64,000 bases of DNA, taken from the NCBI RefSeq assembly GCF_001719045.1, contig NZ_CP015423.1, positions 2,192,001 through 2,256,000 on the forward strand, read 5' to 3'. Both the position numbers and the translations under genes were made by a program. Under the pieces are notes generated by a model that was given only the letters and a program-made list of their open reading frames with translations, did not search any database and was not told the DNA's origin. This DNA is from Paenibacillus polymyxa (GTDB lineage Bacteria; Bacillota; Bacilli; Paenibacillales; Paenibacillaceae). Each line of letters starts with the position of its first letter. The stretch's first letter is position 1. Positions 15,168-20,874 of the stretch are shown one piece after another.

Positions 15168-15395
15168 TTAATAAGATAGGACAAGCTCGTGTTGCTTCTC
15201 TTGTATTTGTGAACTTTGGGGTATGCTCTGTTGTCTGCGATAGCTATATTTCCAGTCACTGTATTTATTAAGGAGTCGATCCAACTCCATGGACTTGATT
15301 AACACCCGCCGATCCTTCAATCCCACCTCATTCGCCAAATCATTTAGTTCCTTCCGCTTTTCTTCGATGCATTCCTCCAATTGTTTCCATTTCAC
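15168..15395 (-). CDS. Spo0E-like aspartyl-phosphate phosphatase
   Basis: A 75-residue protein with the Spo0E family pattern: an N-terminal helix IEEKRKELNDLANEVGLKD, a short turn, and the signature helix VLIKSMELDRLLNKY, where the S-x-x-x-D motif is the active-site hallmark. Family members remove phosphate from Spo0A~P and so delay sporulation. The start is GTG 15395 with AGGAGG nine bases upstream; an overlapping ATG runs directly into a stop. It lies downstream of the receptor/propeptide pair on the same strand but behind a strong terminator, so it is probably transcribed separately. The juxtaposition suggests, but does not prove, a shared role in developmental control. Confidence 0.8.
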   Translation of the reverse strand: MKWKQLEECIEEKRKELNDLANEVGLKDRRVLIKSMELDRLLNKYSDWKYSYRRQQSIPQSSQIQEKQHELVLSY

Positions 15396-15506
15396 ATCAA
15401 TAAACCTCCTGTTCGGTGTGGTATTTACATTAGTTTACAAGCTGATACCTTCCCTACAGGTTAAAAATATAATAAAACCCAGTTCATTCCTTTAACGGGA
15501 TGAATC

Positions 15507-15539
15507 AAAAAAGCCAGCCTCAGTAAGGCTGGCTTTTTG
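15507..15539 (-). terminator. Terminator of the receptor/propeptide unit
   Basis: A perfect 12-bp stem, AAAAAGCCAGCC with GGCTGGCTTTTT, and a seven-base loop. It works in either direction. On the minus strand it ends the transcript of the receptor and propeptide genes. Confidence 0.85.
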
Positions 15540-15546
15540 ATAACTA

Positions 15547-15648
15547 TTAAGCTCCAGTTCCATGTCCAAAAACAGTAATAGTATGGGTCAATTCAAGGAA
15601 ACTAAAAAGCCCTATAATTAGCATGTATTTCAGGTTTTTTACTTGCAT
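15547..15648 (-). CDS. Alo-type quorum-sensing propeptide (33 aa), overlapping the receptor gene
   Basis: A 33-codon gene. The product starts MQVKNLKYML, has a hydrophobic stretch IIGLFSFLEL, and ends ...TVFGHGTGA. The ATG at 15648 has GGAGGAGG about nine bases upstream, stronger than most sites in this window. The gene begins inside the last codons of the receptor gene in another frame (47-base overlap) and ends just before the shared terminator. A basic start, hydrophobic core and short polar tail are how RRNPP-family propeptides look. The P. polymyxa Alo systems are described as receptor plus downstream AloP propeptide, the mature signal being a C-terminal hexapeptide. The tail GHGTGA would be that peptide here. 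Family assignment is from recall of the Alo literature; processing is inferred. Confidence 0.75.
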   Translation of the reverse strand: MQVKNLKYMLIIGLFSFLELTHTITVFGHGTGA

Positions 15649-17011
15649 TGGTTAAAACCTCCTCCATGATACTTTCATATTCTGCTTTTTGGTCTTTCGT
15701 GGCCTCAAGTCTGAATCTTTCGAACAAAGCTGTACAGACCATACACTTTTCTTTGTTATTGATTTCAAGATATTTTCTTAAGCTTTTTAAAATATAATAA
15801 ACACCTTTCTCATGGAGAAGGTTATTAAACATATATATGGCCAGTTGGTAACACAAATCAGCATAAGTGTCATAACTAAATGACTGCTTATAATAACTCG
15901 TACCAACAGATAATTCAGTATTAAAGGACGTAAGTTCGTTAGAAAACTGCTGTAGAATATGTTCTATCAAAAAATCATACTTGTTAGCCGACTCTACTAT
16001 CGTTAATAACCCCAATAAAATTTCAGGAGGGTTACTTTTAAGAAATTGAATATACATTGGCAAACTACTTGTATCGCCCATAAGAATATTCAAGTTAAGT
16101 TGATTAGCATTTGCCCAAAGTGTGAACCTTTGCACTTCTTGCTGACCAATTTCCCCTAAATCTTCAAACCAACTCAAATCGGCATAGCCAGAAATAAACT
16201 GCATGGCCTCTTCGTATTTCCCTTGCTTTTCCAACGCATTTCCCTTCGTCAAGTAACCTTGACCATAGTAGACAACTAAATGTCTCTCAGTTTTCAATGT
16301 AGAATTCTTTTTATTAGTTTCTCTACTTTTACTTACAATAGTTGCAAGCGCTCTTAATTCATCTGCATAACGCTCTGCTTCTTTCCAATGATGCAAGTTG
16401 TAATAAAGATTTGACAGTTTAAGCAGACCATCTAAATGATAATCTAAGGGTACCCGATTTCTAAAGGGTACAAATCTTAGGGCGGCTTCCAAATTTATCT
16501 TCATATTTTCACTAACAGATATTGAAAAAATTCTATAGTGACTGATAGCCAACCTCTCGGAATGTTGGTATTTTTCATTTTCAATCACACATTCATAGAA
16601 AGGAATTGCCTCTTGTAACTTCCCTTCTTCATAAAGCTCCTCTGCCAAAGCAAATATTGTTGGAATGTGGTTAAGATCTTCCATTAAGCGTGAAAGCACT
16701 TTCTCCACGCATCGCAGATTTCCTACTTCAACACAACGTATCAGGAACGGCTTGACCCTTTTCCAATGTGGTCTTCCATCATAAAAACATTCATCCACAT
16801 ACAGGTCATACAACCAGCCCTCTGGATAATTAAACGCTTTAGTAATCAAGTCCATTTGTCTTACGGAGATAGGTTTAGGCGGATTCCCATTAAGCATAGC
16901 ACTAAATATGCCCCGATTAAGACCCGTAGCTTGTCCAAAACTATTAAAAGTGTAGCCACCAAGTTTTAGTTCTTTCTCAATTTCCGAACGGATCGTGGTT
17001 GCATTTTCCAA
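15602..17011 (-). CDS. Alo-type HTH-TPR peptide receptor with a linked propeptide (RRNPP superfamily)
   Basis: A 469-residue cytoplasmic regulator. An N-terminal helix-turn-helix (about residues 15-70: YTFNSFGQATGLNRGIFSAML, then SVRQMDLITKAF) is followed by about 380 residues of TPR-type helical repeats (FALAEELYEEGKLQEAIPFYE, NALEKQGKYEEAMQFI, LSNLYYNLHHWKEAERYADEL). This matches RRNPP receptors (Rap, NprR, PlcR, PrgX, AimR) and in particular the AloR family of Paenibacillus. Such proteins bind a re-imported signal peptide in the TPR groove and change DNA binding. I place the start at TTG 17011 (LENATTIRSEIE), which aligns with the ATG of both paralogues and has GGGGG at the right distance. 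The upstream GTG overlaps that site. The 3' end carries the overlapping propeptide gene, a feature the paralogues lack. Confidence 0.82.
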   Translation of the reverse strand: MENATTIRSEIEKELKLGGYTFNSFGQATGLNRGIFSAMLNGNPPKPISVRQMDLITKAFNYPEGWLYDLYVDECFYDGRPHWKRVKPFLIRCVEVGNLRCVEKVLSRLMEDLNHIPTIFALAEELYEEGKLQEAIPFYECVIENEKYQHSERLAISHYRIFSISVSENMKINLEAALRFVPFRNRVPLDYHLDGLLKLSNLYYNLHHWKEAERYADELRALATIVSKSRETNKKNSTLKTERHLVVYYGQGYLTKGNALEKQGKYEEAMQFISGYADLSWFEDLGEIGQQEVQRFTLWANANQLNLNILMGDTSSLPMYIQFLKSNPPEILLGLLTIVESANKYDFLIEHILQQFSNELTSFNTELSVGTSYYKQSFSYDTYADLCYQLAIYMFNNLLHEKGVYYILKSLRKYLEINNKEKCMVCTALFERFRLEATKDQKAEYESIMEEVLTNASKKPEIHANYRAF

Positions 17012-17266
17012 TAAAAACACCCCCGGCGTATTCAGATGATTTTAAAAAATCACCCTCCTCGACAATCAATTACAATATACTAGAAATTATATGAATAAAT
17101 TGGATGACGGTCAACCCCTTTTCTACACTGTTTTATTATATTATGGAATTTGATGTTTATTAAATAGTTCTCATAAAAACTAAATATATAACAATTTAGG
17201 CAATTCAATTACCTCCACGCCTGATCTGGCTTTGTCTACACTCATACTATAGGAGTGTGGAGGTCT

Positions 17267-17740: not shown

Positions 17741-19138
17741 TTAAGGCGTCATTTGCTTAATGTTATATTCGACAGCTTTAAGTACTTTTTCATATTCTGC
17801 CCGTTGTTCATGTGTCGAATGGTCTTTGTATTTCTCAAACAATAACGTGATAGACCTGATATAGAAAGCCTTATCATTCAACTGTGAGGTTGCTTTGAGA
17901 CTGTTCAACATACTATCGATCGCCTCAGAATAGTTCCCCTTATTAAAATAATAGCGACTAAGCTCAAGAAAAAAGCGAGAATAGGTCACTAGGTCATAGT
18001 TCGTCATATAATAAGAAATATTTGTGCGTAAGTTCCTAGATTCATTAATATTCTCAGCAAAAAGGATCAAAATATCGTCTACTGTGTAATTGTAGGTATT
18101 GGCCGACTCTATTATGGTTAGTAGTCCAAGTAATATTTCCTGAGGATTATTCCTAATAAGTTCCACATAAGCGGGTAAATTAGTCATATCTCCCATTAGA
18201 ATTTCTAAATTCAAACGGTTTGCCTCTGCCCACATTTCAAATTTCTGTGCCTCTAAAACTCCCACTTCATCTAGCCCTTTAAAAGAAGTCAATTTTTCAT
18301 AGTAAGGTATAAATTTCATTGCTTCTTCATACAGCCCTTGCTTTTCAAGGGCAACTCCCTGTATTAAATAGGCTTGACCATAATAGACGATTAGATTTCT
18401 TTCTGTATTTAGAGGCTTGATTTCATGTTTTTTCAGCCTGGTTAGAATCTGCTGTTCAAAAATATTTTTTGTGATCTCCTCAAGTTCTTTAGCATATTGT
18501 ATAGTTGTCTCACAATCATCAACTTGGTAGTACACATTTGCCAGCTTTAATAAAGCATCCAGTTGATGATTTTCAGGCAAGTTTCTGCGATATGGAGCAA
18601 ATTTTATAGCTTGTTGACGATTATTCTCCAGATCTTTGTTTAAAGAGCAAGAAAATAGCCTATATTGGCTGACAGCCAGCCGCTCCGAGTGGTAATATCT
18701 TTCGTTTTCTATCACACACTCGTAAAAAGGGATCGCTTCCTTTTCTCTGCCTTCAAAATGTAACTCTTCTGCAAACTCAAATACCGTCGACACATAGGAT
18801 AAGTCCTCCGTTAGTCTCGACAATACCTTTTGAATACACTCCTTCCTCCCCAACTCCACACAACGCAATAAAAAAGGTTTGATCCGTTTCCAGTGCCCTT
18901 TCCCCTCGTGAAAGCATTCATCTATGTATAACTCATACAACCAGCCTTCGGGATACCCTAATGCCTTAGTAATCAAGTCCATCTGCCGAACGGAGATGGG
19001 CTTGGGTGGGTTACTGTTCAGCATGGTGCTGAATGTACCACGGTTAATACCAGATATTTTACTAAAGCTGCTAAATGTATAGCCTCTCTGCTTTAGTTCC
19101 GTCTCTATCTTCGAGCGGATCGTAGGTGTATGTTCCAT
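17741..19138 (-). CDS. Alo-type HTH-TPR receptor, paralogue 2 (no propeptide found)
   Basis: 465 residues, the same architecture as the receptor at 15602-17011: helix-turn-helix about residues 15-70 (FSKISGINRGTFSTMLNSN, SVRQMDLITKAL), then TPR repeats to the C-terminus (FEFAEELHFEGREKEAIPFYE, VALEKQGLYEEAMKFI, YYFNKGNYSEAIDSML). The start is ATG 19138 (MEHTPTIRS); the ATG six bases earlier overlaps the GGGGG ribosome-binding site. It lies 42 bases downstream of paralogue 3 with no terminator between, so the two are probably one transcript. The terminator begins about six bases after its stop. Frames overlapping its 3' end give only a 20-codon ORF ending in LSNITLSK, with no ribosome-binding site and no exported-peptide character. 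It appears to be an orphan receptor. Confidence 0.8.
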   Translation of the reverse strand: MEHTPTIRSKIETELKQRGYTFSSFSKISGINRGTFSTMLNSNPPKPISVRQMDLITKALGYPEGWLYELYIDECFHEGKGHWKRIKPFLLRCVELGRKECIQKVLSRLTEDLSYVSTVFEFAEELHFEGREKEAIPFYECVIENERYYHSERLAVSQYRLFSCSLNKDLENNRQQAIKFAPYRRNLPENHQLDALLKLANVYYQVDDCETTIQYAKELEEITKNIFEQQILTRLKKHEIKPLNTERNLIVYYGQAYLIQGVALEKQGLYEEAMKFIPYYEKLTSFKGLDEVGVLEAQKFEMWAEANRLNLEILMGDMTNLPAYVELIRNNPQEILLGLLTIIESANTYNYTVDDILILFAENINESRNLRTNISYYMTNYDLVTYSRFFLELSRYYFNKGNYSEAIDSMLNSLKATSQLNDKAFYIRSITLLFEKYKDHSTHEQRAEYEKVLKAVEYNIKQMTP

Positions 19139-19180
19139 GTACATCCCCCTTGTGTGGTCAGATAACCATTAAATATTAGT

Positions 19181-20578
19181 TCAGGGAACCAATTGCTTCA
19201 TACCAGAACGTACTTCTTCAAGCACTTTTCCATATTCTGCAAGTTGTTTATGTGTAATATGGCCTGTTAGTTTTTCGAATAACAAGGTTACTCCTTTAAT
19301 AAAAGTACTCTTCGTATTTAACTGAGTGGATACCCTAAGGCTTTTTATTATATTGTCAATAGCTTCTGAATATCTGCCTATGTTGAAATAGTAACGCGCA
19401 AGTTCCAGATACAAGCGGGAATAATTCCATAAAAGAGTACTTATTTGATAGTGTGATGGTGTTGAGACGAATTTCTCATAATCAGCAATTTCGTCAGAGA
19501 AAACATCTAGGACATTTTCTAAAGAGAAATTATACTTGTTTGCCGACTCTATAATGGTAATCAGACCATGAGAAATTTCTTGGGGATTTTGCTGTATAAG
19601 CTCGACATAAGCTGCTAAGCTGCTGACATCTCCAATTAAAACTTTTAAATTAAGAAGATTAGCCTTTGCCCATAATTGGAGCATTTTCACCCCTTGTAGA
19701 CCATTTTCATCCAATCCCTCAAACCATGACAAATCTTCATAATAGGGAATGAATTTTAAAGCCTCTTTATACATTCCTTGATTCTCCAACGCGTTCCCGT
19801 GCAATAAATACCCTAGACCATAGTATACGACAAGGGGCTTCTCACTATTGAAGTTATCCGGTTTCCTATTTTTCGAACAACTATAAACTTGCTGATGATA
19901 GACACTTATAGCCAGTGTCCGAAGTTCTTTCGCATACTTTATCGCATTCTCCCAATTACTTGTGTTGAAATAAACATTAGTTAACTTCAATACTCCATCC
20001 AACTGATGATTCTCTGGCAAGCTTTTGCGAAATGGATCGAATTTAATAGCAGCCTTCAAGCTGCTTTCTAAATCTTCAGTAAGCGAGTAACAAAACAACC
20101 TGTATTGACTAATAGCCAAGCGCTCCGAGTGGTAATATCTTTCGTTCTCTACCACACACTCGTAAAAGGGGATCGCTTCCTTTTCCTTACCTGCTTCGTG
20201 CAGTTCTTCTGCAAACTCAAATACCGTCGATACATAGGACAAGTCCTCGGTTAGCCTCGACAATACCCTTCGAATACAGTCCTTTCTTCCTAACTCCACA
20301 CAACGCATTAAAAAAGGCTTAATCCGTTTCCAGTGCCCTTTCCCCTCGTAAAAGCATTCATCTATGTACAACTCATACAACCAGCCTTCGGGATACCCTA
20401 ATGCCTTAGTAATCAAGTCCATCTGCCGAACGGAGATCGGCTTGGGTGGGTTACTGTTCAGCATGGTACTGAATGTACCACGGTTAATACCGGATATTTT
20501 GCTAAAGCTGCTAAATGTATAGCCTCTCTGCTTGAGTTCGGTCTCTATCGTCGAGCGGATCGTAGGTGTATGTTCCAT
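19181..20578 (-). CDS. Alo-type HTH-TPR receptor, paralogue 3 (no propeptide found)
   Basis: 465 residues, a tandem duplicate of the gene at 17741-19138. The first roughly 130 residues, covering the helix-turn-helix and the segment YPEGWLYELYIDECF, are almost identical to paralogue 2 at both protein and DNA level. The later TPR repeats (NVYFNTSNWENAIKYAKEL, NALENQGMYKEALKFI, YYFNIGRYSEAIDNII) differ much more. That is the pattern expected when DNA targets are shared but the peptide pocket has diverged. The start is ATG 20578, with GGGGG and a six-base spacer, not the ORF start 51 bases upstream. It is first in a two-gene unit. The only overlapping 3' frame encodes 11 residues, so no propeptide is evident. 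Confidence 0.8.
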   Translation of the reverse strand: MEHTPTIRSTIETELKQRGYTFSSFSKISGINRGTFSTMLNSNPPKPISVRQMDLITKALGYPEGWLYELYIDECFYEGKGHWKRIKPFLMRCVELGRKDCIRRVLSRLTEDLSYVSTVFEFAEELHEAGKEKEAIPFYECVVENERYYHSERLAISQYRLFCYSLTEDLESSLKAAIKFDPFRKSLPENHQLDGVLKLTNVYFNTSNWENAIKYAKELRTLAISVYHQQVYSCSKNRKPDNFNSEKPLVVYYGLGYLLHGNALENQGMYKEALKFIPYYEDLSWFEGLDENGLQGVKMLQLWAKANLLNLKVLIGDVSSLAAYVELIQQNPQEISHGLITIIESANKYNFSLENVLDVFSDEIADYEKFVSTPSHYQISTLLWNYSRLYLELARYYFNIGRYSEAIDNIIKSLRVSTQLNTKSTFIKGVTLLFEKLTGHITHKQLAEYGKVLEEVRSGMKQLVP

Positions 20579-20874
20579 TTCAATCCCCCTCAATATAGTT
20601 ACAGATATATCGTAGGTCATACTTAACATGTGATTTCGACCATAAGAACTTCATTACATTACAAAATAACTAAAATAGTGAAATATATGGTCTATAAAGT
20701 CATTTTATTTTATGATGCCTTAGAAGGAAGTCTTTTTTTAATGAATCCCGTGATAATTGAAAAGTTAAATGAGGTACATCTGGAGAAGCATTAAAAGCAA
20801 ACTTCAAGTTTTTTTAGTTGAATGTCACAAATGCATATCTTTTTCAGTTATATAGGCAGAAGGGAGGGACGTTA

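Follow-up and report, generated by a model that had tools for sequence, protein, structure and literature searches.

At pherotype loci such as PlcR-PapR, ComQXPA and agr, the signal varies together with the sensing part of its receptor, while the output part stays constant. The locus described here belongs to the Alo systems of Paenibacillus polymyxa, 16 loci of which are described for strain ATCC 842 (Voichek et al. 2020, PMC7425212). There, AloP13 yields the hexapeptide SHGRGG and, in a B. subtilis test, the adjacent spo0E-like gene was activated by AloR13 and shut off by SHGRGG (Voichek et al. 2020, PMC7425212). AloR14, which adjoins AloR13, is described as having only a degenerate peptide sequence, and Alo13 is called highly conserved among P. 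polymyxa strains in an account that reports one peptide tested (PMC7425212).

Alo loci as such are already published; what looks new here is the pherotype character of one of them. We analysed a 64 kb stretch of chromosome, referred to below as the window. Our explanation, which we hold to be very probable as a whole, is that the window carries an alo13 locus with a different signal allele, whose peptide would switch AloR and spo0E and whose signal and sensing part would form an exchangeable pherotype module.

A propeptide frame overlaps an Alo receptor gene

The receptor gene, aloR, spans 15602..17011 on the minus strand and encodes a predicted HTH-TPR receptor of 469 aa, constant to about residue 160 and variable thereafter. 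While the ORF listing puts its start at GTG 17020 (the 472-aa reading from which AloR residues are numbered here), we took TTG 17011 as the start because it is preceded by GGGGGTG and is an ATG in two relatives (L062, L064); the same evidence shows the start given in the first-pass annotation to be correct. Ahead of the gene lies a promoter-like site, TTGACC-17-TATAAT (17086..17114, minus strand), with 11/12 consensus matches—a consensus match only, at a level reached by 9 sites in the region against 7.9 expected.

AloR matched the TPR_2 family PF07719 with 28.4 bits (Pfam cut-off, 27), and its predicted model is a helical solenoid (mean pLDDT 88.9), for which a fold search ranked eukaryotic LGN TPR proteins alongside NprR, Rap and AimR. 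A Pfam search of AloR returned no HTH model at E 0.1. Three observations nevertheless argue for an N-terminal HTH: the model shows helices between residues 10 and 62, residues 1-80 are 96-97% identical between receptor types, the AloR13 type included, and paralogues of AloR have HTH_26 matches, albeit below cut-off.

The propeptide gene, aloP (15547..15648, minus strand), encodes 33 aa, MQVKNLKYMLIIGLFSFLELTHTITVFGHGTGA, from an ATG at 15648, and overlaps the 3' end of aloR over 47 nt, stop codon included. Its ribosome-binding site, AGGAGGT (15657..15663, minus strand), is spaced 8 nt from the ATG. The hydrophobicity of the product peaks at 2.2 over 12 residues, its length falls within the 32-50 aa range of Alo propeptides, and it ends in VFGHGTGA. 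From the position of SHGRGG in AloP13 and a comparison of tails, GHGTGA (codons 15550..15567, minus strand) is the predicted mature hexapeptide, given a presumed processing of the same kind. Past the frame lies a terminator-like hairpin with a U run (15504..15541, minus strand; -22.6 kcal/mol, z -6.3), which a simple consensus terminator scan did not list. A 33-codon frame with a strong ribosome site starting inside the receptor's 3' end, its polar tail GHGTGA and a terminator after it had all been proposed from the sequence beforehand, and each was recovered as described. Class A receptors (P0002-P0009 and P0011; 460 aa) end in ...NASKKP, 9 residues short of the end of the window AloR, so that the AloR tail overlapping aloP may be dispensable.

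The locus is orthologous to alo13

A search of 75 genomes of the genus, the window's own included, returned a close receptor (E <= 1e-130) in 15 of them. Each of the 15 has a frame that starts with ATG, encodes a hydrophobic core, overlaps the receptor end and carries xHGxG at its own end, so that the frame conservation named beforehand as a test was indeed found; the aloP ribosome site is weaker in some relatives, such as G025 with GGGGGTG. Synteny extends to the neighbour locus of uvrB, motA, motB and spo0E (14/14 relatives) and, within the stretches compared, to an aloRb-type receptor (13/14) and an XRE gene (11/14).

The link to published work runs through G025, whose frame encodes the published 23-aa AloP13 propeptide. 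Of the published alo13 primers, G025 matches one, and a second in its unmutated form; for a third, the upper-case part had no match at any locus. The window AloR shares 60% overall identity with the G025 receptor. By these sequence comparisons, the window locus is the alo13 orthologue of a P. polymyxa-group genome, with a different signal allele. Comparison with published AloP propeptides, another check suggested in the first-pass annotation, led to an orthologous locus encoding AloP13 itself. That the frame at 15547-15648 and the receptor at 15602-17011 (both minus strand) form an aloR-aloP pair is supported by synteny, by receptor homology and by a propeptide that is conserved in 15/15 close relatives, own genome included. 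Of the claim that the locus was complete, the receptor and propeptide stood; it had overlooked the spo0E-like gene further downstream, a probable operator and the apparently exchangeable allele.

Signal tails and receptor types vary together

Among the 15 genomes the AloP tails fall into six types around a shared HG-G core. The tails are GHGTGA (window, G018), GHGIGG (G013), AHGVGC (G008), GHGNGNYSTYGHGNGH (G027, G019), YHGAGG (G060, G062), NHGMG (G061, G059, G063) and SHGRGG (G026, G025, G007, G045). Between the window and G013, the hexapeptide itself differs. In the aloP genes L059 and L061 (of G027 and G019), the ending GHGNGNYSTYGHGNGH amounts to two near-copies of the signal per propeptide, and the two doubled tails differ only by 4 synonymous codons.

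AloR identity within types is 88-99%, and between types it is 93-99% for residues 1-160 against 25-61% beyond. In the database, 22 of 120 listed receptors (P0001-P0022) all fall into the same six classes, at 71-100% to their class and 95-99% identity in residues 1-160; some of them derive from the genomes already compared, and P0001 represents the window's own cluster, or very nearly. Records labelled P. polymyxa (labels as given) occupy at least two classes, that of the window and that of G027 and G019.

For the mature codons, six within-type pairs gave 6 synonymous and 0 nonsynonymous differences, against 10:19 in the rest (p 0.005), a count that treats the doubled tail as mature over its full 17 codons and owes 4 of the 6 to that tail's first part; with only the last six codons of the tail counted, the figures become 2:0 against 14:19 (p 0.20). 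These numbers are suggestive of purifying selection on the AloP tail. Because the codon result depends on the doubled tail, the case for constraint leans more on the shared xHGxG core than on the codon test.

Signal and sensing half cross the flank tree as a block

Against G027, its nearest relative in the set, the window shows 93-99% identity across 8.5-15.5 kb and, in bins of 250 bases, 87-94% across 16.5-17.5 kb, with a drop to 66-74% over 15.5-16.5 kb, where coverage is 35-46% in the first two bins. Along aloR, identity falls from 98% just upstream of the gene to 84% in codons 91-200, 68% in codons 201-330 and 63% in codons 331-472. With G018 the pattern differs: 79-98% over 8.5-15.5 kb and 90-96% over 15.5-16.5 kb. 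Elsewhere in the window, between 21750 and 23250, identity to G027 also falls from >90% to 67-85% and then recovers.

Phylogenies gave the same picture. The flank-gene tree groups the window with G027 (support 100/100), whereas the module tree, built from receptor residues from ~141 onwards, groups it with G018 and G013 (100/99); this tree contains one long branch, G008, and long branches meeting elsewhere are flagged in it. In AU tests, whose five groups were chosen after the trees had been inspected, the flank data rejected a clade of window, G018 and G013 (p 3.5e-161), one of G060 and G062 (p 1.3e-71), the SHGRGG group as a clade (p 1.8e-11) and a clade of G027 and G019 (p 4.3e-4); conversely, the module data rejected a clade of window and G027 (p 9.7e-5). 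Peptide type changes 8 times on the flank tree versus 5 times on the module tree, 5 being the minimum for six types. Signal and sensing domain appear to have been swapped jointly at one fixed position, in conflict with the flank tree, which suggests that they pass between species as a unit, with the DNA-binding half and the target gene left unchanged.

As a control, two other peptide-bearing Alo receptors were compared between the window genome and G027. Each 80-residue segment of these receptors shows 90-99% identity, and the last seven residues of their propeptides are identical; Alo loci in this pair are therefore not swapped as a rule. Set against its best G013 match (orthology assumed), one of the two shows 74-88% identity and no step, with tails QHGGS versus THGGA, and so tails can also drift slowly.

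A constant palindrome precedes the predicted target gene

On the minus strand, aloR and aloP are followed by the hairpin, a 22-base palindrome and a Spo0E-like gene (15168..15395, minus strand; PF09388, E 7.9e-14), the predicted target, which adjoins the aloR locus in 14/14 relatives. A promoter scan listed none directly ahead of spo0E; this fits, without demonstrating, dependence on an activator.

The stretch from terminator to spo0E is conserved in all 15 genomes, TTYATYCCGTTAAAGGGATGAA included. In the window, the palindrome reads TTCATCCCGTTAAAGGAATGAA (15483..15504, minus strand) and consists of 8-bp inverted repeats, with one mismatch here, around 6 bp. Searched with a pattern derived from the conserved TTYATYCCGTTAAAGGGATGAA, it occurs at <=2 mismatches as a single copy per genome, always at the locus, in 15/15 alo13 genomes, and the window genome holds no second copy at <=3 mismatches. 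The palindrome is likely the AloR operator. A near-constant AloR N terminus together with a single constant site fits AloR acting on spo0E.

Neighbouring paralogues

Past an XRE-type gene, two paralogous receptor genes stand in tandem, aloRb (17741..19144, minus strand) and aloRc (19181..20629, minus strand), and behind neither was a propeptide frame with a ribosome site found. The number of such paralogues varies among relatives, and their C-terminal half is the more variable one. The window's own genome contains 21 AloR-like places (L001-L021), 16 of them near full length; behind about 10 of these 16 genes lies a short hydrophobic frame that overlaps the gene (its start unclear in one case), and 7 of the 10 frames end in GGA, GGF or GGI.

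Weighing alternative explanations

Were the 33-aa frame a chance ORF and the receptor an orphan, one might point to the family-model search of the AloP product, which found no match. Yet aloP is the sole frame in the 64 kb window, on both strands, that combines an ATG, >=7 nt of AAGGAGGTGA, a length of 30-60 aa and a hydrophobic core, and 20 first-order Markov sequences of window length yielded 2 such frames, that is, 0.1 expected per window. As 15/15 genomes have a frame that overlaps the receptor gene, with a hydrophobic core and an xHGxG tail, and as the G025 frame is the published, secreted AloP13, we regard a chance origin as extremely improbable. A separate question is whether the palindrome at 15483-15504 serves some other regulator, or belongs to the terminator region, rather than being an AloR site. 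It abuts the hairpin, and no matching site lies near the AloR paralogues of that genome. There is also a tension with ATCC 842, where SHGRGG represses other alo genes (PMC7425212), since the window genome has one site only. Against this stand the near-constant receptor N terminus and the distribution of the palindrome: one site per genome, directly ahead of spo0E, in 15/15 genomes that carry this aloR, compared with a 2-mismatch match in only 3 of 60 other genomes, none near an AloR gene. We consider a role independent of AloR unlikely.

A working Alo13 pair could also exist with neutral variants, any xHGxG peptide being heard by all types and the C-terminal half of AloR simply evolving fast in a variable region. 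The HG-G core in all 15 tails would fit, as would the peptide-less orphans: aloRb and aloRc likewise diverge more after residue 160, if with a weaker step (aloRc versus G027: 96, 89, 69, 50, 44 and 54% along the protein), and the DNA spanning them (17.5-20.25 kb) matches G027 at only 63-88% identity. The whole region is therefore variable, and the step at residue 160 may in part reflect fast TPR evolution without a peptide, or recombination for other reasons. Neutral variation would, however, have to account for discrete classes after residue 160 (88-98% identity within, 25-61% between), into which the 22 database receptors among the 120 listed, some from the same genomes, also fall; for the module and peptide crossing the flank tree as a block; and for two other Alo loci that show no such crossing between the window and G027. 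Neutrality thus appears to us a distinctly unlikely account. Our preferred reading, in which exchanged modules carry different specificities, is a probable one, if held with some reserve: in the P. polymyxa group, alo13 would act as a pherotype locus, with at least six mutually deaf dialects arising from swaps of aloP and the receptor after ~160, each joined to an invariant DNA-binding half with a single operator and a single spo0E, the dialect of G027 and G019 having two signal copies per propeptide.

Proposed mechanism and comparison with known systems

Because the alo13 experiments can be combined with orthology, we propose a comparable secretion, processing and spo0E switch. AloP, made from the frame overlapping the aloR end, would be exported via its hydrophobic N terminus, trimmed to a peptide from its C terminus, most likely GHGTGA, and re-imported. 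There, GHGTGA would bind the C-terminal TPR part of AloR. Peptide-free AloR would activate spo0E, with the palindrome at 15483-15504 as its probable site, an activation that the peptide would turn off; with less Spo0E-like phosphatase, Spo0A-P would be favoured at high density. aloP and the part of the receptor that starts near residue 161 would constitute one allelic, exchangeable specificity module, with the HTH half, operator and spo0E constant across types. If these are swappable dialects with a single output, spo0E, the locus offers a compact natural experiment on specificity change in RRNPP receptors; as the constant and variable halves of AloR meet at ~160, specificity is testable by a small peptide x receptor matrix. 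If true, this also bears on which plant-growth-promoting Paenibacillus strains hear each other.

With Alo13 of ATCC 842 the window shares the locus, gene order, a near-identical receptor N-terminal half, the propeptide build and the downstream spo0E-like gene, as well as an AloR without a working peptide gene alongside (AloR14 there), but it has GHGTGA in place of SHGRGG (PMC7425212). The window receptor moreover belongs to another type after residue 160, and the window has three receptors in tandem. If it acts like alo13, the locus resembles the arbitrium system AimR-AimP-aimX in that peptide binding lowers expression of the adjacent downstream gene (PMC7425212). Unlike arbitrium, it lies beside chromosomal uvrB and motAB and has a Spo0E-like gene as its predicted target. 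As in PlcR-PapR, ComQXPA and agr, signal and sensing part co-vary at the window locus around a constant output part; what sets alo13 apart is that sensing and output parts meet within a single cytoplasmic HTH-TPR protein, near residue 160, and that the target and probable operator are adjacent and constant.
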